A stretch of 64,000 bases of DNA from Sideroxydans sp. (GTDB lineage Bacteria > Pseudomonadota > Gammaproteobacteria > Burkholderiales > Gallionellaceae): contig JAQTUV010000005.1 in the NCBI GenBank assembly GCA_028707175.1, forward strand, positions 124,001-188,000, in the 5' to 3' direction. Positions 8,006 to 46,011 of this stretch are shown piece after piece; position 1 is the first letter of the stretch, and each line of letters begins with the position of its first letter. The notes beneath the pieces were generated by a model, which saw only the letters and a list, made by a program, of their open reading frames with translations, was not told the origin of the DNA and searched no databases. The position numbers and the translations under genes were made by a program.

Positions 8006-8021
8006 TGTAGCAAAGCAGACA
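8006..8021. promoter_or_regulatory. NifA upstream activator site (TGT-N10-ACA)
   Basis: TGTAGCAAAGCAGACA fits the NifA operator TGT-N10-ACA and lies about 45 bases upstream of the -24 element of nifE. The motif alone is short and occurs by chance, but the position makes it credible. Confidence 0.7.
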
Positions 8022-8118: not shown

Positions 8119-9945
8119 TTACTGAATCATGTCTCGAATTTTGGTCAACCAGACGCGAACCTCGCCTTGTGGATCACGCTCATGAATCCTTGCTGCGGTC
8201 ATCAATGGGAATGCACGTTCAGCAAGGCGAAGCTTTGCTTTAGTATCTCCCATGATTGCGTCGAACCCTTGAATGGCTGAGTAAGCCTCTGCGAATCGCT
8301 TCGGTGTCGCCTTTCCATCCACAGGATGATCTGTAACCTCTATCTTGATGTTGAAAGCTTCGTGAATCGCATCGGAATGTAGGTAACTCTCAATTTCGTG
8401 TTTTGTTGTTTGCACGGCCCAAGAGCCGTCTTGCCGTGCATTCACCTTGGTTGCAGCCTCGGCATAACTGGCAACATCACGATCATAGATATGCACTTCT
8501 TTTTTGTTGAGTGCGCGCAAGTAGTTTTCATCGACCCAATGCTTCAAGTTGCCCCCACCCAGCACAATAAAAGCAACTCGTTCGTCGTTTTCTAGGTTCG
8601 GCAACGAATTATCTTCAGCATGAAGTGCCTTGCTGAGTGCCTTAAATGCGGCAACATCGGTGGGGCCTTCTACGCACAGCAAAACCTTTACACGGCTATC
8701 AGGTGTTACTCCGAGGGTTTCCGCGACCGCGCCGAAAACATTTGCACCGGCCTGAATAAATGGCTTACCAGTTGTGGCATCCCGGAAGATAAAGCGGATG
8801 CTGTCGTTGGGTAGATCGGAGGCAAATCCAGGGCTGTGTGTTGTAAGAATGACCTGGCACCCAGTTTCCGAGGAGAGAGATTTGAACGATTCAATCAGTA
8901 TTCGCTGATTGTTCGGGTGTTGGGCGGTTTCAGGCTCCTCGATTGCATAGATGATGCTGCGACGATTGCTGGACTTGAGCAGACGTTTTGCCTCTGCTTT
9001 GAAAAAGCTAACAAGAACCAGTCTCCGAACACCGCTGCCACGTTTATTGAGCGGAATGCCCGCATCAGTGTTAAGCGCAACAGAGAACAATCCTTGCCAC
9101 TTGGCAGCAGTAGGTGGAGTGAATTCGGGATTCAATTCGCTGGCTAACATGGGGTCTATGGTTTTCAGCTCTTCATGCGTGTTCTTGGCGATTTCTTCTG
9201 CCTTTTCCTGGACACGCTGCTGAATCTTGGCGATATCTGCTTGGACTTCGGCTAGGGCAGCGGCAACAGCTGCCTTCATTGGGCTTTGTACTTCATCATC
9301 GGAATCCTTGCTGCTTCTGTCGCTTTGGAAGAGAGCGAACATTGGAAGGTAGCTCTCGATCTGATCCCAAATTCTCTTCGCATCCTCCTTAGCCTTGCTA
9401 ACCGGAATTGCAGTTTCCACTAGTTGTAAATCGCCTGCGGCTGCCCAGATTGCCTTGCGCATTCCGGGGTTGCCCTTCAGCGGTACATCCAGCTGCAGCT
9501 CCTTTACCTTCGCTTGTAGGTCTTTTTCTTTGAGTTCGATAAGGTTCTGAAATCCGGGAGCAGAGGGATGATTGGCAAGCACGAAGATTTCAACCGATGG
9601 CTTCTTGTTACCACAGTCATAAATCTTTCGGAGTTTCAATGTTCCCGTGTTTGTCAGCAGAAACTCCTCTGCAAGCGTTGTTTCAGCTCCGGCATCAAGG
9701 TTGAGCGAATGAGGGAAATCAGTAAACTCGCAAGTAATTTCGACCTTCTCGTCGCCGCTGAATACATTTTTATCGCCTTGTTCAATTGAAACGATGCTGT
9801 TGTTGAAAAAGATCTCCAATGCTTCCAAAACCGATGATTTACCAATGTCGTTCCGCCCCACAAAGGTGGTGAGATCACCAAAACCAACATTTATTTCTTC
9901 CGCGTAGCAGCGAAAGTTTTTCAGCGTAACGGATAACAAGCGCAT
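8119..9945 (-). CDS. OLD-family ATPase/TOPRIM nuclease
   Basis: The 608-residue protein has an N-terminal ABC-type ATPase (GRNDIGKSS Walker A near residue 30; IYAIEEPETAQHPNN Walker B region; TTHSPGFAS switch) and a C-terminal TOPRIM domain (CVEGPTDVAAFKAL, then YDRD near residue 500). This is the layout of OLD (overcoming lysogenization defect) nucleases, often phage-defence proteins. No UvrD-like helicase gene is beside it, so it is not a Gabija pair. It starts with AGGGAGAG upstream of the ATG at 9945 and reads toward nifE. Its position between nif operon and kup looks like an insertion. Confidence 0.85.
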   Translation of the reverse strand: MRLLSVTLKNFRCYAEEINVGFGDLTTFVGRNDIGKSSVLEALEIFFNNSIVSIEQGDKNVFSGDEKVEITCEFTDFPHSLNLDAGAETTLAEEFLLTNTGTLKLRKIYDCGNKKPSVEIFVLANHPSAPGFQNLIELKEKDLQAKVKELQLDVPLKGNPGMRKAIWAAAGDLQLVETAIPVSKAKEDAKRIWDQIESYLPMFALFQSDRSSKDSDDEVQSPMKAAVAAALAEVQADIAKIQQRVQEKAEEIAKNTHEELKTIDPMLASELNPEFTPPTAAKWQGLFSVALNTDAGIPLNKRGSGVRRLVLVSFFKAEAKRLLKSSNRRSIIYAIEEPETAQHPNNQRILIESFKSLSSETGCQVILTTHSPGFASDLPNDSIRFIFRDATTGKPFIQAGANVFGAVAETLGVTPDSRVKVLLCVEGPTDVAAFKALSKALHAEDNSLPNLENDERVAFIVLGGGNLKHWVDENYLRALNKKEVHIYDRDVASYAEAATKVNARQDGSWAVQTTKHEIESYLHSDAIHEAFNIKIEVTDHPVDGKATPKRFAEAYSAIQGFDAIMGDTKAKLRLAERAFPLMTAARIHERDPQGEVRVWLTKIRDMIQ

Positions 9946-32171: not shown

Positions 32172-33109
32172 CTCTTTATCAGCGCCGCTTCTGTCTCTGG
32201 CAGATAACTGAAGCCTGCCTCCAAGTCACGCATCACGGCGTAGGCGATCTTGGGTGGGGTGATGGTGCCGGCGACGAGATGGAAATACCAAGCCGACGGA
32301 TAACCCGCCGCGCGATCGAATGCTTGCAACTGCGCACTCATCTCGACACCAGACAATTCATCATTCCAATGGAAGGGCTTGAGTGCGCGTGCATGACGTG
32401 AGGTGAGGGAGGCGCTGAGCATAGGGTTGCGATATCGATCTAGGTGCTCGCGTACCGCAACGATCCAATGATCGCTGAAGTGACCGCGTGTCGCGGCACT
32501 GCTATGCGACCACTCGGCCAGCATGCGCGTCAAGGCGCTCATGCGTCCATCCACGCTGGATAGACGGGCGACAATCTGGCGCATGTCGATCAAACGACGG
32601 AATTGATATTGCGGCGCTTTGACAGTTTGGGCATCCAACATGATGGGCGAGATCGGCTCGATGAATTCCATCAACTCTTCAGCGGGGTTATCCGGATCGA
32701 TCAACTTGCGATCCAACACTTCTTGCAACTCTTCCACTTCAAGCTGCATGAAGTCGACTGGCGCAGGCCCATACGCCGCGACGAAATAATGTGTCTGGCC
32801 AGAATGTCTCGTCACCAGATAATCTTTGGCAGCGTAACGCTCCATCAACTCGCCCATGTCATCCGAACAATCTTTCAGTTCAGCTCGTGCCCATGGCTCC
32901 AGACTGTCTGCGATGCGGCTGCCGTCTGCGGCAATGACACCACCGGAGCGATACCAGCCACCTCGGCTCAAGGCATATTTGAAAGTGCATCCGGGACGGA
33001 TGTCGTTAGCGATCGTGAGCAAACCACTGTGGTGCGGACGCGGCGCGACGGCAGCGATAGCGGTAGATAGTTTGTTCAATAACGTCTCATCATTCGTGTA
33101 GATACTCAT
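32144..33109 (-). CDS. Nif-linked protein of unknown function (321 residues)
   Basis: The protein is soluble, with no signal peptide or recognised motif. Visible features: LEVEELQEVLDRKLIDPDNP, a proline-containing link PISPIMLDAQTVK, and RLIDMRQIVARLSSVDGRMS; the C-terminal half is helical. It overlaps the LRV gene as ATGA and shares its sigma54/NifA promoter, so it should be made during nitrogen fixation. A degraded copy of its 3' end lies at 23719-23819. Confidence 0.75.
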   Translation of the reverse strand: MSIYTNDETLLNKLSTAIAAVAPRPHHSGLLTIANDIRPGCTFKYALSRGGWYRSGGVIAADGSRIADSLEPWARAELKDCSDDMGELMERYAAKDYLVTRHSGQTHYFVAAYGPAPVDFMQLEVEELQEVLDRKLIDPDNPAEELMEFIEPISPIMLDAQTVKAPQYQFRRLIDMRQIVARLSSVDGRMSALTRMLAEWSHSSAATRGHFSDHWIVAVREHLDRYRNPMLSASLTSRHARALKPFHWNDELSGVEMSAQLQAFDRAAGYPSAWYFHLVAGTITPPKIAYAVMRDLEAGFSYLPETEAALIKSWAAVPYSI

Positions 33110-33873
33110 TGTTCATCCTCGTGAAGGAATTCATTCAAGCGCCTTCTGACAGCGGCCCGCACATCCGGTTCGGCATCATCCACTAAATCGGCGACAGATT
33201 CGAGTGGGGCGCGTTGCACGGCTTCTAAACGCACAACCCAATCGTCATCGTTAAACATCTTCGCAAGCTCATTGACCATTAGACGCGACGCCACGATTCG
33301 TCTGACCTCCGCATCGTCGTCTTTCATCAATCTGCCCAGCGCGAAAGGCGGTAAGCGGCGAGCCACCTCTTTGCGCACCTCTCTATCCTCATCACCCACC
33401 ATACGCCCCAACTGCCCATGCGGCATACGCTTGGCGACTTGCAAACGCACCAGATAATCCTCATCGCTTATCAAGGCGCTCAAGCGTTCTGGTGCGATAC
33501 GCTCCGCCACCGTCATGCGCACCTCGCGGTCTGAGTCATGCAGGTAGTCGTCCAGTTCATCGACCGGCAAGCGACTCGCCACCACTCTACGCACCACCTC
33601 GTCCGCATCACGCGGAAGTTGTTTGACCACGTCCAAGGGCGCGTAACGCGCAGCGATGGCACGGCGCTCCCAAAAACCATCAGCCAGATAGTCTTGTGCG
33701 AACTGCGGATTGCGCCGCAAGAAACGATCTATCTGCCGACCACTCTGCGCGACGATGCAAACGTCCCCCTGCACGCACTTAGCTTCCAACAGCAGCGCGC
33801 GATGCGGGCAGACCGAGCAATCGACGCAGATGACTTCCGTCAACGGCGATGCCACGGGGTGAGATCCCGTCAT
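33106..33873 (-). CDS. LRV protein with N-terminal 4Fe-4S cluster
   Basis: The 255-residue protein begins with a cysteine cluster (CVDCSVCPHRALLLEAKC, then VQGDVC) and continues as about eight repeats of 24 residues of the form DxDxxVRxxVAxRLPxxxL (for example DADEVVRRVVASRLPVDEL). This is the leucine-rich-variant protein known from Azotobacter, which carries a 4Fe-4S cluster; it is encoded near nif genes in several diazotrophs. Its role is not established. GAAAGG precedes the start, and a sigma54 promoter lies 49 bases upstream. Confidence 0.88.
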   Translation of the reverse strand: MTGSHPVASPLTEVICVDCSVCPHRALLLEAKCVQGDVCIVAQSGRQIDRFLRRNPQFAQDYLADGFWERRAIAARYAPLDVVKQLPRDADEVVRRVVASRLPVDELDDYLHDSDREVRMTVAERIAPERLSALISDEDYLVRLQVAKRMPHGQLGRMVGDEDREVRKEVARRLPPFALGRLMKDDDAEVRRIVASRLMVNELAKMFNDDDWVVRLEAVQRAPLESVADLVDDAEPDVRAAVRRRLNEFLHEDEQ

Positions 33874-34218: not shown

Positions 34219-34695
34219 TCAAGCCAAGGGCTTGCGTAGCACCACCATGTTGGAAAGCTCGAACTCGAGGTTGTCGTAGAACGCCAGTGCGGAACGGTTA
34301 TCACCATCTGCCAGCAGGGTGACACGTGTCATCCCCTGCCCTTTCGCCCAGGCCACCACATGATCGAACAAACGCCGTCCCAATCCCATGCCGCGATACG
34401 TGCCGCTGATGATGATGTCTTCCAGCAACACCACTGGGCCACCTTCCGCCGTGCTGATGGTGATGAGCGCATTCGCCATCCCGGTCACTTTGCCATCGAC
34501 ACGTAATACGAATAGTCGGCCTATCGCGGGATCATTAAGGATGAGTCGCAGTCCGCGCATTTGCTTTTCGCGGTCAGGTTGAAAATCGCTTTCCAATGCG
34601 AAGAGTTCTGCCAGCAGATCGGCAAGCTGCGGCAAGTCTTCTTCAGTGGCGAATTCGATGTCTGGTTTAGCTTCGTTAGGTTTGTTGGGCTGCAT
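34219..34695 (-). CDS. GNAT-family N-acetyltransferase
   Basis: The 158-residue protein has the acetyl-CoA binding motif IIISGTYRGMGLGRRLFDHV (about residues 95-115) and ALAFYDNLEFE near the C-terminus, both typical of GNAT enzymes. It overlaps the end of modD by 20 bases, so it is the last gene of the molybdenum operon. Its substrate is unknown. Confidence 0.85.
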   Translation of the reverse strand: MQPNKPNEAKPDIEFATEEDLPQLADLLAELFALESDFQPDREKQMRGLRLILNDPAIGRLFVLRVDGKVTGMANALITISTAEGGPVVLLEDIIISGTYRGMGLGRRLFDHVVAWAKGQGMTRVTLLADGDNRSALAFYDNLEFELSNMVVLRKPLA

Positions 34696-35521
34696 AAAAA
34701 GTCACCTGCACATCCTTGGGGGGTGCAGTATACGGCGCTGAGGTCACCAATAAATCTGCTCCTGCTCGTACGTACTCCGCCGCATTCTCAACTTTGATCC
34801 CGCCAGCGACGGCGAGTGACGTTTGCAACTCCAATCGTTTTAATGCCGCACGACACACTGTGATGTCATCGGGGGTGAATTTTTCCAGTTGCAGCACATC
34901 TGCACCCGCCTTTGCCCAGAGCATGGCTTCCGCCACATCAGCCACTTCGACCACCAGTTTCTTCTCGGGCTCGGCCCGTTTGAAGCGAGCCACAGTGTGT
35001 GCGGGCGGCTCATCCAGAAAAAGCCGATGCTCGGCAAACAGCAACAATGTTTCCGACAATCCAAGTCGATGCATGGTCGCACCGCCTGCCCGCACCGCTT
35101 TGATAGACAGCGCCTTGGTGCCCGGCACATTTTTGCGCGTACAGGCCAGCGCGATGGGCGACGCCGCTTTCACGATGGCGGCAGTCGCCGTGCTGATGCC
35201 ACTCGCCCACTCCACCAATACCTGTGCGCTCTTCCATACTCGGTGTAGGGTGCGGGCATCACCCTGCGCTTCCAGCAGTAGTTCGTCTTTGCTTACTGCT
35301 TGCCCTGAATGGACAAACACTGCGATCTTTGCTCCGCTCAATTCGAACAATCTCGCGGCTTCCTCGATGGCGCACACCACCATGTCTTGCCGCGCACAAA
35401 ATTGGAGGCGCGCAGCTTGTTGGCCGATGCCGGCAGTTTCCGTAGTCAGATCGCCACAGGGCACATCGTCAGCCAGTAGGTGTAACAACTCTGCATCTGT
35501 CAGCGCGAGGTGAGACATCAT
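34676..35521 (-). CDS. modD: ModD, quinolinate phosphoribosyltransferase-like
   Basis: The 281-residue protein is related to nicotinate-nucleotide pyrophosphorylase (NadC): DVPCGDLTTETAG at the N-terminus, TRKNVPGTKALSIKAVRAGGATMHRLGL-type core in two parts (TRKNVPGTKALSIKA and RLGLSETLLLF), and LAVAGGIKVENAAEYVRAGAD. ModD proteins of this type are encoded with molybdate transporters; the reaction is not settled. The start at 35521 overlaps the upstream stop as ATGA; an ATG one codon later is equally possible. Confidence 0.87.
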   Translation of the reverse strand: MMSHLALTDAELLHLLADDVPCGDLTTETAGIGQQAARLQFCARQDMVVCAIEEAARLFELSGAKIAVFVHSGQAVSKDELLLEAQGDARTLHRVWKSAQVLVEWASGISTATAAIVKAASPIALACTRKNVPGTKALSIKAVRAGGATMHRLGLSETLLLFAEHRLFLDEPPAHTVARFKRAEPEKKLVVEVADVAEAMLWAKAGADVLQLEKFTPDDITVCRAALKRLELQTSLAVAGGIKVENAAEYVRAGADLLVTSAPYTAPPKDVQVTFYAAQQT

Positions 35522-36360
35522 TCCTTGGCAGCCGCGATTTTCGCGTCCGCAGCCTGCGTGTGCTGAAATACTTTGATGGCGGAGACCAGCAAGATGATGC
35601 CCAGTCCGAACAAGAGCCATGATGAAGGAATCACGCCCAGCATCAGCCCGCCGATGGCCGCGCCGAGGATAGAACCTGCCGCCATCCAGACCAACAAGCC
35701 GCGTTCGCGTTTCAGCGCGGCAAAAGCATTCGATTCGCGGTAGCGGGCGAAGCCCACGAGCATGGTGGGCAGGCTGACCATCAACGACAAGCTGCCCGCC
35801 AGTTTGATATCCAGCCCATAGAGCAGCACCAACGTGGGGATCAACAATTCACCGCCCGCCACACCCAGCAGCGCAGCCACCATGCCGATGAACAATCCTG
35901 CCACCAGACCTGCCACCCAACGCAATGCACCGTCGGCGATCAGCGGCGCGCCGCCGTCGTGCGCGCCCAGTCCGGCTTCGGCTAGGATCACGAGGGCGAG
36001 CATCACCAGCAGGATGAGGATCACGCGGTCGAGCATCTGGCGCGACAGGCGCATGGCATGACCCGCCGCCCACCATGCACCGACCAAACTACCGGCCAGC
36101 AAGTTGATGGCGATGTCGACATGCTTCAACAAATCAGCAAAGGGAATCGTGCCGCCGCGAAACAGCAGCGCGAACGCCACCACCACCAGACTCATCGCCT
36201 TGTTGAGGATCACCGCTTCCAGCGTGGGCAATCGGAAGCGCGCCACCAGCACCGGCAGGCGAAATTCCGCCCCGCCCAGACCGATGAGCCCGCCAAGGCT
36301 ACCGATCAGCGCGCCCCAGCCAAAACTGGCGGCATTCTTATTTTGCGATGGTGCGCTCAC
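35518..36360 (-). CDS. TauE/SafE-family membrane permease
   Basis: The 280-residue protein has about eight hydrophobic segments and two similar halves with GxxGLGGAEFRLPVL (about residues 20-35) and LLGVAGGELLIPTLV (about 165-180), the DUF81/TauE pattern of sulfite or sulfur-compound exporters. Here it lies inside the mod operon, coupled to modC and modD by ATGA overlaps. This suggests that it moves an oxyanion related to molybdate chemistry (inference). Confidence 0.85.
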   Translation of the reverse strand: MSAPSQNKNAASFGWGALIGSLGGLIGLGGAEFRLPVLVARFRLPTLEAVILNKAMSLVVVAFALLFRGGTIPFADLLKHVDIAINLLAGSLVGAWWAAGHAMRLSRQMLDRVILILLVMLALVILAEAGLGAHDGGAPLIADGALRWVAGLVAGLFIGMVAALLGVAGGELLIPTLVLLYGLDIKLAGSLSLMVSLPTMLVGFARYRESNAFAALKRERGLLVWMAAGSILGAAIGGLMLGVIPSSWLLFGLGIILLVSAIKVFQHTQAADAKIAAAKE

Positions 36361-37430
36361 GCCATCAGTGCCACGCTCTTCACCTGAGCGAACACTTCTC
36401 TACCGACGAACAAACCCAGTTGATCGTGTGAGCGGCGGGTGATGCGCGACAGCAACACCTGCGACTCACCGATCTTGATGCGCAGCATCAGTTTGTCCGG
36501 TCCTTCATCGCGGATCTCGGTGATCATTCCGCTGAGGATGTTGGAGATACTGGTTGCCTGCGGCATCTGCGTGGCGACACTCACATCGCGCGCCAGGATG
36601 CGGGCACGCACGGTTGTGCCGAGCGGCTGTTCCACTTTCCCTACCCACAGCGCCCCCTCAGAGAAATCCAGACGCGTCAGGTGATAGGGTTCGTCGTGCC
36701 CTGCCACCGCCGCTTCGATCACTGCGCCCGCATCATCGAAGTGCGCGGTGGGCAAGTCGAGTCGTGCGAGCGTTTCGTGCAGTGATCCACTGGCGATGAC
36801 GCGCCCTTTTTCCAGCAACACCAGATGATCGGCCAAACGCGCCACTTCCTCCATGGCGTGGCTGACATACAACACGGGGATATTCAGCTCGCGGTGCAGG
36901 CGTTCCAGATACGGCAGGATCTCTTGCTTGCTGTTGGTGTCGAGCGCGGAGAGCGGCTCATCCATCAGCAGGATGCGAGGACTGGTGAGCAGCGCGCGAC
37001 CGATGGCGACACGCTGGCGTTCACCACCGGAAAGTTGCATTGGATCGCCGCGCTCGATGAGATGACTCAAGCCCAGCCATTCCACGACTTGCTCCAGTTG
37101 CACCTTACGTTCACCAGGTGCGATACGTTTGTAGCCGTATTCCAGATTCGCTCGCACCGACAGATGCGGGAACAGACTGGCTTCTTGAAACACATAACCC
37201 AGCGGACGCTTGTGTACTGGCACGAAGGTCTTGTCGTCTTGCCACGTTTCGCCGTTCACGTGCAATGAACCTTGGACACGTTCCAATCCTGCGATGCAAC
37301 GCAGCAAGGTGGTCTTGCCCGAACCGGAGGGGCCGAACAAGGCGGTGACACCCGTCGCAGGTGCATCAAACGTTGCATCTAGGGAAAAGCTATCCAACTG
37401 CATCTTGAACTGTGCGCGGATGGAATTCAT
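36357..37430 (-). CDS. modC: ModC, molybdate ABC transporter ATPase
   Basis: The 357-residue ATPase has Walker A (GPSGSGKTT, about residue 35), the signature [16 protein letters not shown] (about 130), Walker B ([12 protein letters not shown]) and a C-terminal Mop/TOBE domain (about 290-355) that binds molybdate. It energises uptake through ModB. Both ends overlap neighbours by four bases. Confidence 0.95.
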
Positions 37431-38116
37431 TTCGTCACCTTGGATAATTTGCCGCCCGCCAAGTACAGCGACAGCAACACCACGAACGAGAACAGGACCA
37501 TGCCACCCGCCAGCAGATGCGCCGAGTTATATTCCATCGCCTCGACGTGGTTGTAGATAGCCACAGAGAGCACGCGTGTCTCGCCGTCGATATTGCCCCC
37601 CAGCATCAGCACCACGCCGAACTCGCCCACGGTGTGCGCGAAAGCCAGAATGATCGCGGTGAGGAAACCGGGACGCGCGAGCGGCAAGGCCACACTGAAG
37701 AATCGGTCTAGCCTACTTGCACGCAACGTCGCCGCTACTTCCAACGGACGTTGGCCTATCGCCTCGAAGGCGTTTTGAATAGGCTGTACGGCGAAGGGCA
37801 TGGAGAAGACCACCGAGCCGATCACTAGACCGTAAAAGGTGAAAGGCAAGCGCCCCAACCCCAGTGCCGTGGTCAGCTCACCCACCATGCCGTGCGGCCC
37901 CATCAACAACAGCAGATAGAAGCCCAGCACCGTGGGCGGCAACACCAGCGGCAAAGCAACCACCGCCGCCACCGGCCCCTTGTACCACTTGCGGCTATGC
38001 GCCAACCACCACGCCAGTGGCGTGGCGATGAGCAGCAGCAAACAGGTGGTGACACTCGCCAGCTTGAGCGTGAGCCAAACGGCTTGAAGGTCGGCGGGGT
38101 CTAACGTGGTCATCAT
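37427..38116 (-). CDS. modB: ModB, molybdate ABC transporter permease
   Basis: The 229-residue protein has five or six membrane segments and the EAA-loop pattern [22 protein letters not shown] (given in two parts: [22 protein letters not shown]). It forms the inner-membrane channel with ModA and ModC. An ATG at 38113 is an alternative start. Confidence 0.94.
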
Positions 38117-38150
38117 ATTTTCAAATCATCGAAATACTTTTTTGGTTATT

Positions 38151-38320
38151 CCCCTCTCCCGCAGGCGGGAGAGGGTTAGGGTGAGGGTCTATGCGAATCT
38201 CAAAATTTTATTACAACTCAACACCCCTCATCCCCAGCCCTTCTACCCGCAAGGAGTACGCCGGTGGGTACCCCGTCGCTACGCGGCGACCCTTCCGCAG
38301 TCCCGCCTGCGGGAGAAGGG
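38151..38320. repeat. Enlarged family A repeat between modA and modB
   Basis: The left hairpin (CCCCTCTCCCGC/GCGGGAGAGGG) and TTAGGGTGAGGG are normal. The right half is interrupted: after CCCTTCTACCCGC comes about 50 extra bases containing a small inverted repeat (GTCGC-TAC-GCGAC type), and then CCCGCCTGCGGGAGAAGGG. It looks like a repeat that acquired an insertion. Confidence 0.75.
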
Positions 38321-38330
38321 AGTAAACACA

Positions 38331-39086
38331 TCACGGAAGTTCGTAACCAAAATTGCGGATGATCGCTACGGCTTTTTCACTCTTCAAGTAAGTGAGGAAA
38401 GCTTTCGTTGCTTCTTTGTCTTTTGCGGCCGTCAATTGCACCGCCGCCTGCTTGATGGGATTGTACATATGCGCAGGAACGACCCACCATGAACCTTCAG
38501 TCACCTTGCCATCTTTGGTGATCTGCGACAACGCGATGAAGGCCAACTCGGCATTGCCTGTCGCAGCGAACTGGTAAGTCTGGGTGATGCTCTCACCGGT
38601 CACCAGCTTGCCTTGCACGACTGTCCACAAGCCTTGATCTTCCAACGTCTCTTTCGCAGCCAGCCCATAGGGAGCAAGTTTCGGATCAGCATAAGCGATC
38701 TTGTTGTAATTCCCCTTACGCAAAACATAACCCTTGCCATCAACCAATCCCGGTTGTGCGCTCCACAACACCAGCTTGCCCAATGCATAAACGAAACGCG
38801 AACCTTCGACTGCCAATCCTTCCTTCTCTAGCAATTTCGGATTCTTCTCATCCGCCGCAAGGAACACATCGAACGGTGCGCCCTCTTTTATCTGCGAAGT
38901 AAACTTACCGCTCGAACCGAAAGACAATTTCACCGTGTGCCCAGTCTCTTTCTGGAACAACTCGGCGATCTGCTTCACCGGCTCAGTGAAGTTGGCCGCT
39001 ACTGCCGCATTCACTTCGCCCGCATTCGCCACTTGCACCATCGTTGCCAACAGCGCGCCCAACAATCCGAATTTGATCGACTTCAT
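38331..39086 (-). CDS. modA: ModA, periplasmic molybdate-binding protein
   Basis: The 251-residue protein has a signal peptide (MKSIKFGLLGALLATMVQVANA) cut before GEVNAAVAANF, and ModA features: FGSSGKFTSQIKEGAPFDVFLAAD. It binds molybdate or tungstate in the periplasm. AAGGAG precedes the start. Confidence 0.95.
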   Translation of the reverse strand: MKSIKFGLLGALLATMVQVANAGEVNAAVAANFTEPVKQIAELFQKETGHTVKLSFGSSGKFTSQIKEGAPFDVFLAADEKNPKLLEKEGLAVEGSRFVYALGKLVLWSAQPGLVDGKGYVLRKGNYNKIAYADPKLAPYGLAAKETLEDQGLWTVVQGKLVTGESITQTYQFAATGNAELAFIALSQITKDGKVTEGSWWVVPAHMYNPIKQAAVQLTAAKDKEATKAFLTYLKSEKAVAIIRNFGYELP

Positions 39087-39098
39087 TTTTTTCGCTCC

Positions 39099-39920
39099 TT
39101 ACGCGTTGACTGCCAAAATAACGTGCGATGCCTTGATCAGCGCACACGCCTTCACACCATCCTTAAGTCCCAATGTCTTGATGCTGTCATTGGTCACGAT
39201 GGCCGCCACACTCTTGCCACCCGCCAATTCGATGATGACCTCACCATTGACCGAGCCTTCTTGGCAACGCACCACCGTGCCATGCAATTCGTTGCGGGCG
39301 CTGGTCTTGAAGCCGTCCGAAGTGGTCACGATCACCCACGGCGCTTTCACCATCGCATAAGCCTCGCTGCCCACCCTCAAACCAAGATGGCTCACGCTGT
39401 CGTTGGTGATCACTGCAGCCAGCGTGTCGCCACCACCAATGTCCAGCACCACCTCTGCATTGATCGCCCCCAGCTTCAGACTTTTCACCGTACCCAAAAA
39501 CTGATTTCGTGCGCTTGTTTTCATGTCGAATCTCCTTATCAAATGGTAATACTCATCAAAATCATCCATCACCTGCGCCAGCTTTTTGAGCACCTCTTCC
39601 CGCTCCTGCTCCAAACGCCGATACGCTCCCACTACCCGGCGACCATGTTGGGTAAGCGTTGTTCCGCCCCCTTTTGATCCGCCAGTCTTGCGCTCTACTA
39701 AAGGTTGCTCAGACAGGTTGTTGATCGCCTCCACCGCTTCCCACGCGGCCTTGTAGCTCATACCCATCGCACTGGCTGCAGCAGTGATGGAGCCTGATGC
39801 ATCGATACGCTCCAACAATTCCAGATGATCCCAGCGCCGCCCCTTGGCGAGCTTCAACTTGGAAACCACGCCAGACTCAGATTTCTTCCCAGTCTTCTTC
39901 TCTACAACTGATAGCACCAT
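39099..39920 (-). CDS. modE: ModE, molybdate-responsive regulator
   Basis: The 273-residue protein has a LysR-like helix-turn-helix N-terminus (WDHLELLERIDASGSITAAA, SAMGMSYKAAWEAVEAINNL) and two Mop domains (about 130-200 and 205-270: TSARNQFLGTVKSLKLG and TSARNELHGTVVRCQEG). Molybdate-bound ModE represses uptake genes. The start at 39920 (GAGGT upstream) was chosen over one 46 codons farther up that would read through the promoter. It is the first gene of the mod operon. Confidence 0.93.
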   Translation of the reverse strand: MVLSVVEKKTGKKSESGVVSKLKLAKGRRWDHLELLERIDASGSITAAASAMGMSYKAAWEAVEAINNLSEQPLVERKTGGSKGGGTTLTQHGRRVVGAYRRLEQEREEVLKKLAQVMDDFDEYYHLIRRFDMKTSARNQFLGTVKSLKLGAINAEVVLDIGGGDTLAAVITNDSVSHLGLRVGSEAYAMVKAPWVIVTTSDGFKTSARNELHGTVVRCQEGSVNGEVIIELAGGKSVAAIVTNDSIKTLGLKDGVKACALIKASHVILAVNA

Positions 39921-39932
39921 GATGACCTCACA

Positions 39933-39957
39933 CGTTATGTCTCTGTACAACCTAACG
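39933..39957. promoter_or_regulatory. Degenerate ModE-type palindrome before modE
   Basis: CGTTATGT...CCTAACG: outer arms CGTTA/TAACG are perfect inverses 13-37 bases before the modE start, and overlap the expected start point of the minus-strand sigma54 promoter. The inner parts are imperfect. Compare the better site at 40195-40218. Confidence 0.5.
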
Positions 39958-39961
39958 CACA

Positions 39962-39976
39962 GCAAGAGCAATGCCA
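39962..39976 (-). promoter_or_regulatory. Sigma54-type promoter of modE-mod operon
   Basis: Minus strand TGGCATTGCTCTTGC: GG-N10-GC spacing is exact, with one mismatch in TGGCAC. It is 42 bases before the modE start and faces away from the promoter at 40167-40181. Confidence 0.6.
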
Positions 39977-40064
39977 TCGCTTCAACCAGAGCAATAAAAC
40001 CCTCTAGCCATTGGATTACACGCCATCCCTGCGCCCAATTCAAGCTCTTCAAACCCAAGCGTTA

Positions 40065-40080
40065 TGTAGCCTTTTAAACA
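40065..40080. promoter_or_regulatory. NifA-type activator site between modE and TonB operon
   Basis: TGTAGCCTTTTAAACA fits TGT-N10-ACA. It lies about 100 bases upstream of the plus-strand sigma54 promoter and about 90 bases upstream of the minus-strand one, so it could serve both. Confidence 0.68.
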
Positions 40081-40166
40081 AATTGGCACATTCGTTACAA
40101 CCTATAAGCTACAACGGAATACCCCTTTAACCACGAACTCCCCAGCCACATAGGCCTTCGCCGTAT

Positions 40167-40181
40167 TGGCACATCCCTTGC
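40167..40181 (+). promoter_or_regulatory. Sigma54 promoter of TonB-receptor operon
   Basis: TGGCACATCCCTTGC matches TGGCAC-N5-TTGC exactly, 64 bases before the receptor start. Confidence 0.82.
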
Positions 40182-40194
40182 TGAGTCGAGATAG

Positions 40195-40218
40195 CGTTAT
40201 GTACTAGTTTACATAACC
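40195..40218. promoter_or_regulatory. ModE operator at TonB-receptor promoter
   Basis: CGTTATGTA-N6-TACATAACC: 8 of 9 positions are inverted-symmetric, and it fits the ModE-box form CGNTATRTA-N6-TAYATANCG. It overlaps the predicted start point of the sigma54 promoter at 40167-40181, so bound ModE would block transcription. Confidence 0.75.
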
Positions 40219-40244
40219 AAATCCATTTTACATAGGAGCGACGA

Positions 40245-42218
40245 ATGAAACCGCACAACAAAACAAATACCTTATGGCTGGCTTGTCTGTTGGCCTGTAG
40301 TGCAACTGCGACAGCCGAAACCTTCAGCTTGGGTGAGCTCACGGTGACTGCGACCAAACCGCAGGTTGGAGAAATCGGCACAGACCAAACATCGTCGGTC
40401 GTTACCCAAAAAGACATAAAGCAATTCAACCGCGACAACGTAGGCGATGCGCTGAATCTGCTTTCCGGCGTTACGCTCACCAACAGTGGCATGCGCAACG
40501 AAAAGATGATCTATGTGCGCGGCTTTGATGCCCGTCAAGTACCGTTATTCATCGACGGCATTCCTGTTTATGTTCCTTATGACGGTTATGTCGATTTGAA
40601 TCGCTTCACCACTGCCGATCTGGCCGCTATTCAAGTTTCCAAGGGCTTCAGCTCTGTCTCCTATGGCCCTAACACGCTCGGCGGCGCAATCAACCTGATC
40701 TCGCGCAAACCTAAAACCAAATTCGAGGGTGATGTTTCAGTCGGCATCGCCTCCGGCAACGAGAAACAAGCACAAGCGAATGTCGGAACCAACCAAGGTA
40801 TGTGGTATGCACAGGCGGGCATCTCTTACTTGAAAAGTGACGGCTACCCACTATCGGCAAGCTTCACCCCCACCGCCACCGAAGACGGTGGCACACGCAA
40901 CAATTCCTACCGCAAGGATGACAAGATCTCCATCAAGTTTGGCCTGACACCTAATGCCAGCGATGAATATGCGATCAGTTACTACAAACAGAATGGTGAA
41001 AAGGGGCAGCCTCCCTCCACGGGCGCTGGGGCTCGCTACTGGAAGTGGCCATTCTGGGACAAGGAAAGTCTCTATTTCCTGTCGAACACACAGCTAGGAG
41101 ACAACGAAAAGCTCAAGGTCCGGCTCTATGAAGACAAGTACGGCAATGGCTTGGACATCTACGCTAACGCGAGTTATCCGACCATCACCAATCCCGTCGC
41201 CAACCAAAGTACCTATGATGACAAGACTCGTGGAGGCTCTGTTGAACTGAGTACGACTCGCCTAGCCCGACAAGAAATCAAGTTGGTCACCAACTACAAG
41301 GTTGATAAACACATCGCACGGGATGGTGTTGCAACCATCACAGAATCTTTTCAGGACACGTTGTCGTCTTACGCTATTGAAGACAACGTAGCGATCAACG
41401 ATTCGACACTGCTCTCTCTCGGCATCACTCGACATACCCTGCGTCCGCAGGAAGTCTATAAGCCAGGAAGTCCATTCACGTTGCCCGATGCAAAGTCGGC
41501 GACCAACGGTCAGGCTGGGCTGTATTACGATCTCACCGCAGACACCCGTCTCTACGCGACACTCGCTCAGAAATCTCGATTACCTACACTGAAAGACCGT
41601 TACTCCGCACGGTTTGCGACCTATATCGAGAACGCGGCACTGCGTCCCGAAACGTCGATCAACTATGAGATCGGCTACCAAGGCACTCCTTGGGATGCAG
41701 TCAAAGCTGAAGCAGCGATCTTCTACAGTGATATCACCGACAAGATCCAGACGGCCTATCAGACTGGCACGACTACCTGTAGCGCCGGCGCCAAGTGCCA
41801 GATGCAGAACATCGGCAAGGTCAGTTCCACAGGTATCGAACTGGGCATGCGCGGTGCAGCGAACACCGCGCTGGAACTGGGCGGCAACTACACACTGACC
41901 GTACTCAAGAACGTCAGCGACCCCGCGACCAAACTCACCGGCATCCCTCGTCACAAACTGACCGCACATGCCTTGTACAAAGTGGGCGATGCAATCGATC
42001 TGATCTCGTTCGCCGAATACAACAGCAGCCGCTGGGCTTCGAACACGGTCGAATTGTCCGGCTTCGCAACGCTGAACCTGAAAGCAGTTTATCGCGTCAC
42101 CCAAACCATCTCGACAGAAGTAGGGATCAACAATCTAACGGACCGCAACTACTCGCTGGCTGACGGCTACCCGAACCCTGGTCGCACTTGGTTCGCCAAC
42201 GCATCAATGAAGTTCTAG
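40245..42218 (+). CDS. TonB-dependent outer-membrane receptor
   Basis: The 657-residue receptor has a signal peptide (LWLACLLACSATATA cut before ETFSLGELTV), a TonB box-like start (GELTVTATK), a plug domain (NVGDALNLLSGVTLTNSGMR, GPNTLGGAINLISRKP) and a beta-barrel ending in NASMKF with terminal phenylalanine. It takes up a metal chelate or similar ligand across the outer membrane. TAGGAG precedes the start. The sigma54 and ModE sites upstream suggest a molybdenum-related ligand; iron or copper chelates are alternatives. Confidence 0.88.
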   Translation: MKPHNKTNTLWLACLLACSATATAETFSLGELTVTATKPQVGEIGTDQTSSVVTQKDIKQFNRDNVGDALNLLSGVTLTNSGMRNEKMIYVRGFDARQVPLFIDGIPVYVPYDGYVDLNRFTTADLAAIQVSKGFSSVSYGPNTLGGAINLISRKPKTKFEGDVSVGIASGNEKQAQANVGTNQGMWYAQAGISYLKSDGYPLSASFTPTATEDGGTRNNSYRKDDKISIKFGLTPNASDEYAISYYKQNGEKGQPPSTGAGARYWKWPFWDKESLYFLSNTQLGDNEKLKVRLYEDKYGNGLDIYANASYPTITNPVANQSTYDDKTRGGSVELSTTRLARQEIKLVTNYKVDKHIARDGVATITESFQDTLSSYAIEDNVAINDSTLLSLGITRHTLRPQEVYKPGSPFTLPDAKSATNGQAGLYYDLTADTRLYATLAQKSRLPTLKDRYSARFATYIENAALRPETSINYEIGYQGTPWDAVKAEAAIFYSDITDKIQTAYQTGTTTCSAGAKCQMQNIGKVSSTGIELGMRGAANTALELGGNYTLTVLKNVSDPATKLTGIPRHKLTAHALYKVGDAIDLISFAEYNSSRWASNTVELSGFATLNLKAVYRVTQTISTEVGINNLTDRNYSLADGYPNPGRTWFANASMKF

Positions 42219-42228
42219 GAGATCAGCC

Positions 42229-43500
42229 ATGACAAAGTGGATCGTTTCCCTTTGCTTCTTGCTGCTATCGCAACTGGCTACCGCCACCGAAAAGGTGGTG
42301 GTGGTTTCCAGTTACCCGCAAGAGGTCATCTCTCAATTCGAGGCAGCCTTCGAAAAGAAGTATCCGCAATACCGACTGGAAATCCTGTGGCGACAATCGC
42401 GCGATGCGATGAGCTACCTGCATCAACCACACAGCCCGGTGGATGTGTACTGGACACCCGCACAGCGCAACTTCGTGATGCTGGCGAAAGAAGGTGCATT
42501 CCACAAACTGGATATCGAGCTGCAAGGATTGCCAAAGAAGATCGGCGGCTTCCAGATTTCCGACACCGAGGGTTACTACGTCGCGCACGAGACTGCCGGT
42601 TACGGCATGGCCTATCACCCCGCCGAATTGGAACGTCTGCACCTGCCCGTGCCGACGGATTGGAAGACGCTGACTGACCCCGCCTTTGACGGGCGTGTGA
42701 TGTTGCCCATCCCTTCCAAGGTCGGCTATGCACCCATCCTCATCGACACATTGCTGCAAAGCTACGGCTGGGAACAGGGCTGGCAAGTGCTATCGCAGAT
42801 CGCCGCCAACGCTGTGCTGGCGGATGCAGGGGCGACTTTCATCTCGGACGATGTGGGTAGCGGGCGCGTAGCGGTGGGCATGACCATCGACTTCTTCGCC
42901 GTCTCCGCCATCGCCAACGGCAAGCCGTTGCGCTTCACCTATCCCGAACGGGTCGGCTATTCCCCCGCGCATGTCGGCATCTTCAAGGAAGCGAGCAACC
43001 TAAAAGGCGCACGCGCCTTCGCCAGTTTTGTGCTTTCCGATGAAGGCCAGCAACTGTTGTTCCATCCCGACATCCGCAAGTTACCCGTGCGCCCATCTGT
43101 CTATGCGAAAAAACCGCAAGGATATTTCGATCCGTTTGCCGCCGCACAACGCGCCACCTACGACTACGACGTAGCCTCCGGCCTGCAACGTCAAGACGTA
43201 GTCAGCGCATTGTTCGATGCGCTCATCACGCGTCACCATACCGAGTTGAAGGCGATGCACCAAGCCCTGCGCCGTGCTGAACAGAAATCGTCCGCTGATG
43301 TACGCCTTGCAGAGGCTCGCATACATGCTTATTGGCTGCCGCTGAGCCTCGCTCAGATCAACGATGCGACGCTACAACAAAGTTTCATCAAACGTGACGG
43401 CAAGACTGAAAGCATCGAGAAGCAATGGGATGCGGAGATCTCCGCACACTACGCGCAAGCCACCCGTATCGCACTAACCATCGCGGAGGGAAAACCATGA
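42229..43500 (+). CDS. Periplasmic solute-binding protein (iron-type fold)
   Basis: The 423-residue protein has a signal peptide (MTKWIVSLCFLLLSQLATA) and a binding-protein body of the Fe(III)/polyamine type: VVVVSSYPQEVISQFEAAF, WRQSRDAMSYLHQ, TAGYGMAYHPAELERL. Its C-terminus is longer than usual, with a helical extension (about 330-420: LKAMHQALRRAEQKSSADV). No ABC permease or ATPase gene is beside it, so it may hand its ligand to another system (ModBC is next door) or work with the TonB receptor. TAGGAGA precedes the start, 10 bases after the receptor stop. Confidence 0.8.
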   Translation: MTKWIVSLCFLLLSQLATATEKVVVVSSYPQEVISQFEAAFEKKYPQYRLEILWRQSRDAMSYLHQPHSPVDVYWTPAQRNFVMLAKEGAFHKLDIELQGLPKKIGGFQISDTEGYYVAHETAGYGMAYHPAELERLHLPVPTDWKTLTDPAFDGRVMLPIPSKVGYAPILIDTLLQSYGWEQGWQVLSQIAANAVLADAGATFISDDVGSGRVAVGMTIDFFAVSAIANGKPLRFTYPERVGYSPAHVGIFKEASNLKGARAFASFVLSDEGQQLLFHPDIRKLPVRPSVYAKKPQGYFDPFAAAQRATYDYDVASGLQRQDVVSALFDALITRHHTELKAMHQALRRAEQKSSADVRLAEARIHAYWLPLSLAQINDATLQQSFIKRDGKTESIEKQWDAEISAHYAQATRIALTIAEGKP

Positions 43501-44843
43501 ACCGCCACGTGCTGTCGATATTGATCGCCCTTGCCGCAGTGCAGCCCGCACTCGCCAACGATGCCGCCATTGCCGTCAACGATGCGACTCGCGAGGCTTA
43601 CACGCAGCCGGTTCCGGCAATGGAGGAAACCGACCGTGCCAAGTTTCTCAAGGGGCGCGGTCTGGTGCGGCAGATATGGGTGATCCCACCTAGCGAGAAT
43701 CGCGAGATCGCCGGGCTTGGCCCCTTGTATAACCGTCTCTCATGCATCGCCTGCCATCCGGCGAACGGCCGCGGCTTTGCGCCGGAGAACAAGGACGAGC
43801 CGATGCGAGCCATGCTGGTGCGCTTGAGCGTGCCGGGCAGCGACCCGCACGGTGGCCCGTTGCCTCACTCGGCCTACGGCGGACAGTTGAACGAGAACGG
43901 TGTGCCCGGCGTAGCGGGTGAAGGCCGCGCAGAAATTCGCTACACCACACACACCGTCACGCTGCACGGCGGAGAAAAAATAACACTGCGCAAACCGTCT
44001 TTTCGCTTCACCGATCTGGCCTACGGCGCCATGCCGAAAAACCTGATGACCTCGCCGCGCATCGCACCTTCGATATTCGGCCTAGGCTTGCTGGAAGCCG
44101 TACCGGACAGCACGTTGGTCGCATTGGCTTCTGTGAGCAAACCGACGGGCATCAAAGGCAAGATCAATCTCGTATGGGATGAGGAGCAGAAAAAATCTGT
44201 GCCGGGGCGCTTCGGCTGGAAGGCCAACATGCCCAATTTGCGCCAGCAAATCGCAGGGGCATTCGTCGGCGACATGGGCGTCACCTCGCCGCTGTTCCAG
44301 CAGGAGAACTGCATGCTCGCCCAGAGCGAGTGCGCAAAATCTCCCTCCGCAGGTAAGCCCGAGTTGAATAAGGAGCAGCTCGATGCCACCGAGTTCTATC
44401 ACTTCGCGCTCGCCGTACCGCAACGACGCGACACGGATGATCGACGAGTGCAACGCGGCGCAAAACTTTTTGATCAAGCTCAATGCGGTGCATGCCATGT
44501 AAGCGAACTGAAGACCGGCGAGTTCTCCAAATATCCGACGCTGGCCAACCGCACCATCCATCCCTACACCGACCTGCTGCTGCACGACATGGGCGAGGCG
44601 CTGGCTGACCACAGGCCCGACTACCTTGCCAGCGGACGCGAATGGCGCACCCCGCCGCTGTGGGGCATCGGCCTCGCACAAAAAGTCGAACCGCGCGCCA
44701 ATTTTTTGCACGACGGACGCGCACGAACTTTGTTGGAAGCTGTGTTGTGGCATGACGGAGAGGCTGCCCCTGCTGCACGTAGCGTGAAGCAGATGACCCT
44801 CCAAGACCGACATGCCCTCATTCGTTTTTTGGAGTCGCTATGA
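43497..44843 (+). CDS. Di-haem oxidoreductase-like cytochrome c (DHOR family)
   Basis: The 448-residue protein has a signal peptide (HVLSILIALAAVQPALA) and two CxxCH haem sites, CIACH (about residue 83) and CGACH (about 330). The sequence around NRLSCIACHPANGRGF and FLHDGRARTLLEAVLWHDGEA is the DUF1111/DHOR pattern, related to MauG-like peroxidase cytochromes. It overlaps the binding-protein gene by four bases, so it is part of one system. It may change the redox state of the transported ligand (inference). Confidence 0.85.
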   Translation: MNRHVLSILIALAAVQPALANDAAIAVNDATREAYTQPVPAMEETDRAKFLKGRGLVRQIWVIPPSENREIAGLGPLYNRLSCIACHPANGRGFAPENKDEPMRAMLVRLSVPGSDPHGGPLPHSAYGGQLNENGVPGVAGEGRAEIRYTTHTVTLHGGEKITLRKPSFRFTDLAYGAMPKNLMTSPRIAPSIFGLGLLEAVPDSTLVALASVSKPTGIKGKINLVWDEEQKKSVPGRFGWKANMPNLRQQIAGAFVGDMGVTSPLFQQENCMLAQSECAKSPSAGKPELNKEQLDATEFYHFALAVPQRRDTDDRRVQRGAKLFDQAQCGACHVSELKTGEFSKYPTLANRTIHPYTDLLLHDMGEALADHRPDYLASGREWRTPPLWGIGLAQKVEPRANFLHDGRARTLLEAVLWHDGEAAPAARSVKQMTLQDRHALIRFLESL

Positions 44844-44922
44844 ATGGAAGGAGAACTATTCGATTCGATGAATGACCACCGCCCAATCACAAATCTCATC
44901 TTTATTTTTACAGGAGCCACAA

Positions 44923-46011
44923 ATGTCTAAACGCAATCTGAACCACTTGCTCGCAACTTCTCTGTTCGCCTCCATGCCCGTATTCGCGGATACCGCCAAT
45001 GTGTCCGTGTATGGCGTGGCGAACATCTCTATCGACCGCATCGACACCGGAACCGCCACCAACGGCACAAAGGGAACCAGCATCCTCAAAGCTTCAAGCA
45101 ATGCCTCGCGTATCGGCTTCAAGGGAGTGGAAGAATTGGGAGGCGGCATATCGGCTATCTGGCAGATCGAGTCCTTGATCGCGCAGGACAATGCGGGTGG
45201 CACTTTCGCCACACGCAACAGCTATGCAGGTCTGAGCAGCAAAGACTACGGCACGGTATTGGTAGGTCGTAATGACACACCCTACAAAGTCATCACCCGC
45301 AAGCTGGATAACTTCGGCGACACACTCGGTGACAACCGCAGCTTGTTCGGTACCGTGAAGAGCAAATCATCCAGCACCGTCGCCTCGTTCGTCACCAAAC
45401 AACCCGATGTGATCGCATATAACTCACCTAGCTTCAGCGGGTTCACCGCCTCAGTCGCCTATGTAAACTTGACCGAGACTGCCACCAAAGCCACCGACAA
45501 AAAGGACGATGCAACTTCCTTAGCCGCTTCTTACGACAATGGTTCCTTGTATGGCGCGTTGGGATACGAGACGCATAAGCTCAACACACTCGGCGGTACA
45601 GAAAAAGCATGGAATGCCGCAGCCAGCTACAAGTTGGAGGCCTACTCGCTCGCATTGGCCTATGAGAAGACCAGCGACACGTTGGGGACAGCCGGTGCCA
45701 ACAAATACGGGCATGCGGCACTGTATGTCACCGGCAAATTCGAGTTCGATGCGAGTGCGCTCAAGGCCGCCTATACAAAGGCGAACGATCTGGCCGGTAC
45801 CGCCAACTCGGGAGCGACACATCTCTCGCTCGGTTACGACTACCGGATGAGCAAGCGCACTACGCTGTATGCGCTGTACACCCAGCTGGCCAATAAAAGT
45901 GCGGCCAATTACGACTTGGGCGGTGCAGCCTGGAGCAGCGGGTTGACTACTTCCATCGGTGCCGGCTCAAAGCTGTCTGCATTTTCGCTGGGGGTGAAAC
46001 AGGTGTTCTAA
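44923..46011 (+). CDS. Gram-negative general porin (16-strand type)
   Basis: The 362-residue protein has a signal peptide (LNHLLATSLFASMPVFA) and the betaproteobacterial porin features NVSVYGVANISIDR, SRIGFKGVEELGGGISAIWQ, and a C-terminal phenylalanine (SLGVKQVF). It forms an outer-membrane pore. CAGGAG precedes the ATG at 44923; the longer frame from 44872 has no signal. It is the last gene of the TonB-receptor operon; a hairpin follows at 46030-46057. Confidence 0.9.
   Translation: MSKRNLNHLLATSLFASMPVFADTANVSVYGVANISIDRIDTGTATNGTKGTSILKASSNASRIGFKGVEELGGGISAIWQIESLIAQDNAGGTFATRNSYAGLSSKDYGTVLVGRNDTPYKVITRKLDNFGDTLGDNRSLFGTVKSKSSSTVASFVTKQPDVIAYNSPSFSGFTASVAYVNLTETATKATDKKDDATSLAASYDNGSLYGALGYETHKLNTLGGTEKAWNAAASYKLEAYSLALAYEKTSDTLGTAGANKYGHAALYVTGKFEFDASALKAAYTKANDLAGTANSGATHLSLGYDYRMSKRTTLYALYTQLANKSAANYDLGGAAWSSGLTTSIGAGSKLSAFSLGVKQVF

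Follow-up and report, generated by a model that had tools for sequence, protein, structure and literature searches.

Introduction

ModABC works at the inner membrane, and to our knowledge little is known about how nitrogen fixers move scarce molybdenum through the outer membrane. The closest described case of a combined control by NifA and molybdate comes from Rhodobacter capsulatus where, according to the passages on these genes, the molybdate-transporter-like operon morAB, which is divergent from morC, strictly requires NifA and is repressed with molybdate by the ModE-type proteins MopA and MopB (PMC6925177). In the section concerned, modAB of Pseudomonas stutzeri is counted among operons reported to depend on NifA and RpoN (sigma54), with the data not shown by its authors (PMC2820453). 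Passages on other organisms describe modABC as predicted to be linked to NifA in several alphaproteobacteria (PMC4999443) and modA1/modE as increased during N2 fixation in Azoarcus BH72 (PMC3916325). In synthetic sigma54 enhancers, looping can be quenched by a protein that occupies the DNA between enhancer and promoter, as described in the relevant part of that work (PMC4740811).

Here we describe a two-way control region at positions 39921-40244 of a 64,000-nucleotide stretch of DNA (the window), located in the nif island of a Gallionellaceae host (Sideroxydans/Sideroxyarcus-like) with a genome of 2.89 Mb. Comparison with related sequences makes it likely that both of its arms are activated by NifA and sigma54 and repressed by ModE-molybdate and that modE itself is under the control of NifA; the right arm is predicted to provide for molybdenum entry across the outer membrane.

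The control region and its genes

The window contains nifH, nifD, nifK, nifE and nifN, and the genome encodes both NifA and RpoN with scores over the cut-off. Divergent gene sets flank the control region, with the mod genes constituting its left arm:

34219-39086, minus strand: modA, modB, modC, a TauE-like membrane protein gene, modD and a GNAT gene, the remainder of the presumed minus operon
39099-39920, minus strand: modE, with HTH and two Mop/TOBE domains, a predicted molybdate-responsive repressor gene heading the minus operon
40245-42218, plus strand: TonB-dependent outer-membrane receptor (siderophore/heme/B12-like) with plug and barrel (Pfam PF07715, PF00593), heading the plus operon
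42229-43500, plus strand: periplasmic substrate-binding protein, whose closest relatives of solved structure are binding proteins for pyridoxal phosphate or ferric iron
43425-44843, plus strand: di-haem oxidoreductase (DHOR, Pfam PF06537), whose open frame overlaps the preceding gene and whose start is uncertain
44872-46011, plus strand: Porin_4 porin, final gene of the presumed plus operon

The product of modE matches Pfam HTH_1 and TOBE and scores above the cut-off for Mop and below the curated cut-offs for NCBIfam NF007957 and ModE_repress; a ModE with HTH and Mop domains is thus encoded. In the remainder of the minus operon, the mod profiles TIGR01256, TIGR02141, TIGR02142 and TIGR01334 are matched above cut-off, and matches to TauE and Acetyltransf_1 were also found. 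The presumed plus operon has no ABC permease adjoining the binding protein, which may work with ModBC or another permease. The DHOR in this predicted metal-uptake operon stays with the receptor in several lineages, and a reductive release of metal would be possible. Elsewhere in the window, near nifE, an AAA/RecF-like ATPase (8119-9945) shows weak similarity, far under the cut-off, to retron and anti-phage ATPases.

The sites between the two arms are described with reference to the consensus sequences of sigma54 -24/-12 promoters (TGGCAY-N5-TTGC) and ModE boxes (CGTTATRT-N8-AYATAACG):

39933-39957, no strand: ModE-type box on the modE side, CGTTATGTCTCTGTACAACCTAACG, 25 bases, lying over the predicted modE start (about -6 to +19)
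39962-39976, minus strand: sigma54 -24/-12 promoter of modE, TGGCATTGCTCTTGC, of the form TGGCAT-N5-TTGC, predicted start at about 39951
40065-40080, no strand: shared NifA upstream activator site, TGTAGCCTTTTAAACA, of the form TGTAG-N8-ACA, about 120 bases from each predicted start
40093-40116, no strand: third, ModE-like box, CGTTACAAC-N6-GCTACAACG, starting 28 bases after the start of the NifA site
40167-40181, plus strand: sigma54 -24/-12 promoter of the TonB operon, TGGCACATCCCTTGC, an exact match, predicted start at about 40192-40194
40195-40218, no strand: ModE box on the TonB side, CGTTATGTACTAGTTTACATAACC, lying over the predicted start of the TonB operon (about +2 to +26)

Both NifA/sigma54 and ModE site types are present at both promoters, with a variant form of the ModE box on the modE side. 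An earlier note, made from the window alone, had placed all of these sites except for the third box, with a ModE box over the expected start point of each promoter, and had suggested that the five be sought in related genomes. Their sequences and positions match, and the conservation is found. A wider search identified 64 modE places in 57 of 158 genomes of the family, the best 30 of which were used for comparisons. In eight genomes modE and a TonB receptor gene are divergent neighbours, and in the alignment of these loci the five sites are kept in all eight (minus promoter, NifA site, plus promoter, TonB-side box and a modE-side box of the form CGTTAT..AACG), with the NifA site of one genome (G156) reading TGTTG. 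The aligned regions are delimited by the two promoters; our other searches locate the sites without that delimitation.

Genes facing the outward promoter

An outward sigma54 promoter is present at 15 of the best 30 of the 64 modE places, and in every case (15/15) a ModE box follows at 27-30 bases from the promoter start (28 bases in the window). These promoters face eight TonB receptors, six porins and one porin remnant. The six porins (L091, L092, L094, L095, L101, L111) stand directly behind the promoter and share 56-80% identity with the porin at the end of the window's presumed plus operon. The apparent remnant (L107 in G033) is still preceded by the promoter, together with a ModE box that fits perfectly. 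The other 15 loci have no outward promoter, and none of the three longest frames in the surrounding 1.5 kb or so matched the receptor or the porin; instead, there is a second modA-like gene at six of these loci, a nifX-type gene at seven and neither at two. The association of outward promoter and receptor or porin has a Fisher p of 2e-7, with the remnant scored as a miss and kinship left uncorrected. In three loci (L097, L099, L100) the outer-membrane gene is absent beside modE, yet a ModE-like box (3, 3 and 1 mismatches) lies near the usual place of the plus promoter.

The receptors at this locus do not form a single orthologous family, an assumption that was rejected in light of three receptor clades. 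Five window-type receptors group with a support of 1.0, those of G023 and G156 with 0.999 and those of G192 and G348, the latter from outside the family, with 1.0. Between clades the receptors share 33-46% identity, compared to 68-82% for the binding proteins and 82-90% for modE of the same eight loci (including L061, L068 and L069); the eight binding proteins form a clade of weak support (0.44) despite this identity. Since the receptors have diverged into three clades while the binding proteins remain 68-82% identical, receptors appear to have replaced one another while the switch stayed in place. Among the close named relatives of the window's receptor are proteins from MAGs assigned to Sideroxyarcus (79% identity) and Sideroxydans (70%) and from one labelled just Gammaproteobacteria (80%). 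Sideroxyarcus and Candidatus Nitrotoga both belong to the Gallionellaceae, and a Nitrotoga genome (G056) is contained in the window's family.

Phylogenetic distribution of the control sites

For a comparison beyond the modE loci, we collected 28 genomes with a receptor match at E <=1e-60, counting the window's own. The counts leave out weaker matches, including fragments in G018 and G033, and the named loci L033-L035, L037-L039 and L041. Of these left-out loci, L034, L037, L038 and L041 have ModE-like boxes when up to 4 mismatches are allowed, and L033, L035 and L039 have none; L038 and L041 carry an exact TGGCAY sigma54-like site pointing away from the receptor, accompanied in L041 by TGT-N10-ACA.

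NifA scores over the curated cut-off in 11 of the 28 genomes, ten of which also have nifD over the cut-off, with G021 holding only part of nifD, at the end of a contig. Eight of the 11 being one family, they represent four lineages (Gallionellaceae, G095, G214 and G348). A sigma54 site with at most one mismatch together with a NifA site precedes the receptor within 450 bases in all 11, and neither site was found in the same interval in any of the 17 genomes without NifA. This split has a Fisher p of 4.7e-8, uncorrected for kinship and spread over four lineages. In the three nif-bearing cases outside of the Gallionellaceae, the promoters of G214 and G348 have one mismatch; G214 has a ModE box at 3 mismatches, and none was found in G095 and G348 at the thresholds used.

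As background we used 492 upstream regions of the same loci, excluding the target regions, which contain 38 sigma54 sites, 38 NifA sites, six spaced pairs and six ModE boxes; all six pairs are from nif-bearing genomes. With the target regions included, 552 regions contain 52, 58, 20 and 40, respectively. As one-mismatch sigma54 sites are common (38/492), their absence in the 17 genomes is weak evidence if taken alone.

Of the 17 genomes without NifA, 11 have a ModE box with up to 2 mismatches ahead of the receptor, which in seven cases fits the degenerate pattern with 0 mismatches; elsewhere in these loci, such a box is present in 3 of 296 upstream regions. The remaining six have no box at 2 mismatches, and three of them have one at 3. 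The mod or modE genes adjoin the receptor in G479, G274, G176 and in named Azonexus and Janthinobacterium loci. Because boxes precede the receptor in genomes without NifA and mod genes adjoin it in several loci, control by ModE looks like the wider state of the receptor family, with a control by NifA that accompanies nitrogen fixation.

These observations bear on the cargo, which for the receptor is predicted to be a molybdenum compound. Alternatively, the operon encoding receptor, binding protein and cytochrome could supply the nitrogenase with iron (siderophore uptake), with ModE conveying a secondary signal of metal status. The receptor is closest to siderophore, heme and B12 receptors, and of five solved sequences matching the binding protein, four carry the names of iron-binding or iron-transport proteins; since such relatives include ferric-binding proteins, the cargo might be iron, and they would suggest iron or a chelated substrate. 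We regard iron uptake as rather unlikely in view of the ModE boxes before the receptor in 11/17 genomes without NifA, the mod genes adjoining it in several lineages and the promoter of same kind that drives a porin in six relatives.

Candidate repressor sites

The box on the TonB side differs from the ModE pattern at a single position; it is the best match of the genome and the only one with fewer than 3 mismatches. At 3 mismatches there are seven more places in the genome, and at that level the pattern shows no enrichment (8 places compared to 17 for the reversed control, whole genome). A reading of this box as hairpin was rejected: the strand folds (z -3.9), as would any such palindrome.

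The box on the modE side had been described in the earlier note as a degraded palindrome. It appears instead to be a conserved form with a spacer that is one base longer and a variant right half, as CGTTAT..AACG is kept in 27 of the best 30 of 64 modE places. The exact 25-base form has zero matches in the genome. To rank positions we used a matrix built solely from ModE boxes of genomes lacking nif genes, which places 40195 first among the 24-base positions of the window and 39933 first among the 25-base positions, the latter rank being partly post hoc because the 25-base spacing was derived from 39933 itself.

It is conceivable that ModE represses the TonB arm alone, in which case the box on the modE side would be vestigial and modE-modABC simply activated by NifA. 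Consistent with this idea, the right half reads CCAACG or CTAACG in place of ATAACG in the window and several relatives. We consider it unlikely, since the CGTTAT..AACG form is kept in 27/30 places, with the full ATAACG half in five (best 30 of 64), and since the box scores as high as its TonB-side counterpart with the independent matrix.

While the two boxes of the earlier note are both present, a third, weaker ModE-like box beside the NifA site (40093-40116) had been overlooked, as had the block TTCGTTACAA (40091-40100). This block, just past the NifA site, is invariant in the eight loci with modE opposite a TonB receptor, and comparison of the best 30 of 64 modE places identifies it as left half of the third box. 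Within the window, this box deviates from the ModE consensus and ranks fifth by the matrix. Among loci with a NifA site, the top-scoring place lies at +27 to +29 from this site in 22 of 29, with positive scores in 21 and a negative score in one; in G054 it outscores the TonB-side box of the window itself. The block TTCGTTACAAC was rejected as a general nif motif, as it occurs once in the genome and, at up to 1 mismatch, once in the window.

Candidate promoters and activator site

Across the 2.89 Mb genome there are 17 exact matches to TGGCAC-N5-TTGC, compared to four for the reversed control. The modE promoter has 1 mismatch to TGGCAC and 0 to TGGCAY. Besides the promoter of the TonB operon, the window contains three exact sigma54 sites, ahead of nifE (7947), the LRV gene (33922) and nifH (52989), with TGTAG-type NifA sites of the same form as at 40065 located upstream at 8006, 34012 and 53101. 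The gene behind the second of these pairs (33106-33873) encodes an LRV/FeS protein.

Among the best 30 of 64 modE places, an exact TGGCAY promoter faces modE in 27, and 26 of these 27 have a NifA site 60-160 bases further. No minus promoter was found at the modE position in G137 and G125, and G045 has a promoter with one mismatch and no NifA site. The TGT-N10-ACA motif is usually located at least 100 bases 5' of the start, as stated in the section consulted (PMC2820453). Within the window it is not enriched (13 observed, 14.4 expected), and a lone match therefore carries weight only via its position and conservation. The sequence TGGCACATTCGTTAC at 40084 was rejected as an extra promoter, as relatives keep just its TTCGTTAC part. 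A basal sigma70 promoter may exist for modE, which would weigh against the control proposed here.

A chance occurrence of the NifA and sigma54-like sites, with ordinary ModE-repressed sigma70 promoters driving both operons, would agree with the lack of enrichment of TGT-N10-ACA across the window and is extremely improbable in light of the conservation in 8/8 and 27/30 loci (best 30 of 64), spacings that hardly vary and the contrast between genomes with and without NifA; a chance origin of the sites was also rejected on genome, matrix and background controls.

Proposed model of the switch

Taken together, the comparison lends good support to that part of the earlier interpretation which proposed activation by NifA and sigma54 and a blockade by ModE at the starts of both arms: sigma54 and NifA sites accompany NifA-bearing genomes, and ModE boxes are found in 11 of the 17 without NifA. 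We thus propose that, upon scarcity of fixed nitrogen, NifA would loop from a single site midway between two divergent promoters to RpoN polymerase at either of them. The leftward transcript would encompass modE-modABC-tauE-like-modD-GNAT and the rightward transcript the TonB receptor, the periplasmic binding protein, the di-haem cytochrome and the porin, with the right arm mediating the entry of molybdenum across the outer membrane. If molybdate is plentiful, ModE-molybdate would occupy the boxes over both starts, and perhaps the third box too, where it would block the polymerase and possibly also the contact of NifA or its loop. Because modE resides on the transcript driven by NifA, its product would mainly be made while its targets are on, and the circuit would therefore act as self-limiting homeostat. 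We prefer this description over the plain AND-NOT gate of the earlier note, with which it shares the activation by NifA and the repression by ModE.

As a tentative extension, which could well be true, we propose that receptor, binding protein and di-haem cytochrome import molybdenum under joint control of NifA and ModE, possibly bound in an organic or siderophore-like complex, and that the receptor is an exchangeable cassette, with three strongly diverged types or a porin placed behind a fixed switch. The variety of cassettes would suggest either different forms of molybdenum or the evasion of phages that exploit the receptor. A receptor under predicted nitrogen and molybdenum control would offer a named candidate for the entry of molybdenum across the outer membrane, and the region a compact natural case in which a repressor gene shares the activator of its targets, with two enhancer-driven promoters sharing one activator site.

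Relation to described systems

The regulatory logic, which the earlier note did not recall as described, is not new. The morAB operon of R. capsulatus, with putative NifA and RpoN sites and Mo-boxes, follows the same AND-NOT logic as is proposed for the window (PMC6925177). It differs in containing ABC-type genes and no outer-membrane receptor, whereas the window has a TonB receptor, and in that its repressor gene mopA is part of a separate, NtrC-controlled mopA-modABC operon, whereas modE of the window would be located on a NifA-driven transcript; a shared divergent sigma54 pair and a third box are not mentioned in section 3.3 and the accompanying passages (PMC6925177). The mopA-modABC operon resembles our left arm in combining the gene of a ModE-type repressor with mod genes in a nitrogen-activated and molybdate-repressed unit, but, as described in the same passages, it employs NtrC and the housekeeping sigma factor in place of NifA and sigma54 (PMC6925177).

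In P. stutzeri A1501, PST1348, a putative molybdenum-binding protein, adjoins modABC and has NifA and RpoN consensus sites, although the section mentions neither a ModE box nor a divergent arm or a TonB receptor (PMC2820453). Likewise, the passages on alphaproteobacterial modABC and on Azoarcus BH72 contain no TonB arm (PMC4999443, PMC3916325). In Sideroxydans lithotrophicus ES-1, a member of the same family, genes of a molybdate transporter adjoin nif genes, but the passages describe neither their regulation nor a TonB receptor at that place (PMC3770913). The quenching in synthetic enhancers illustrates a possible role of the third box, although the portion of that study concerns synthetic constructs and other proteins (PMC4740811).

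In the portions of the open-access literature that were covered, we found neither a TonB receptor or porin under double control by NifA and ModE nor a shared divergent three-box layout, an absence that carries little weight because subscription papers were mostly outside the search and 'ModE' also matches 'mode'. Within the literature searched, two features of the locus look new compared to these systems: the shared divergent layout, and an outer-membrane target in which three receptor types or a porin are placed behind one promoter.
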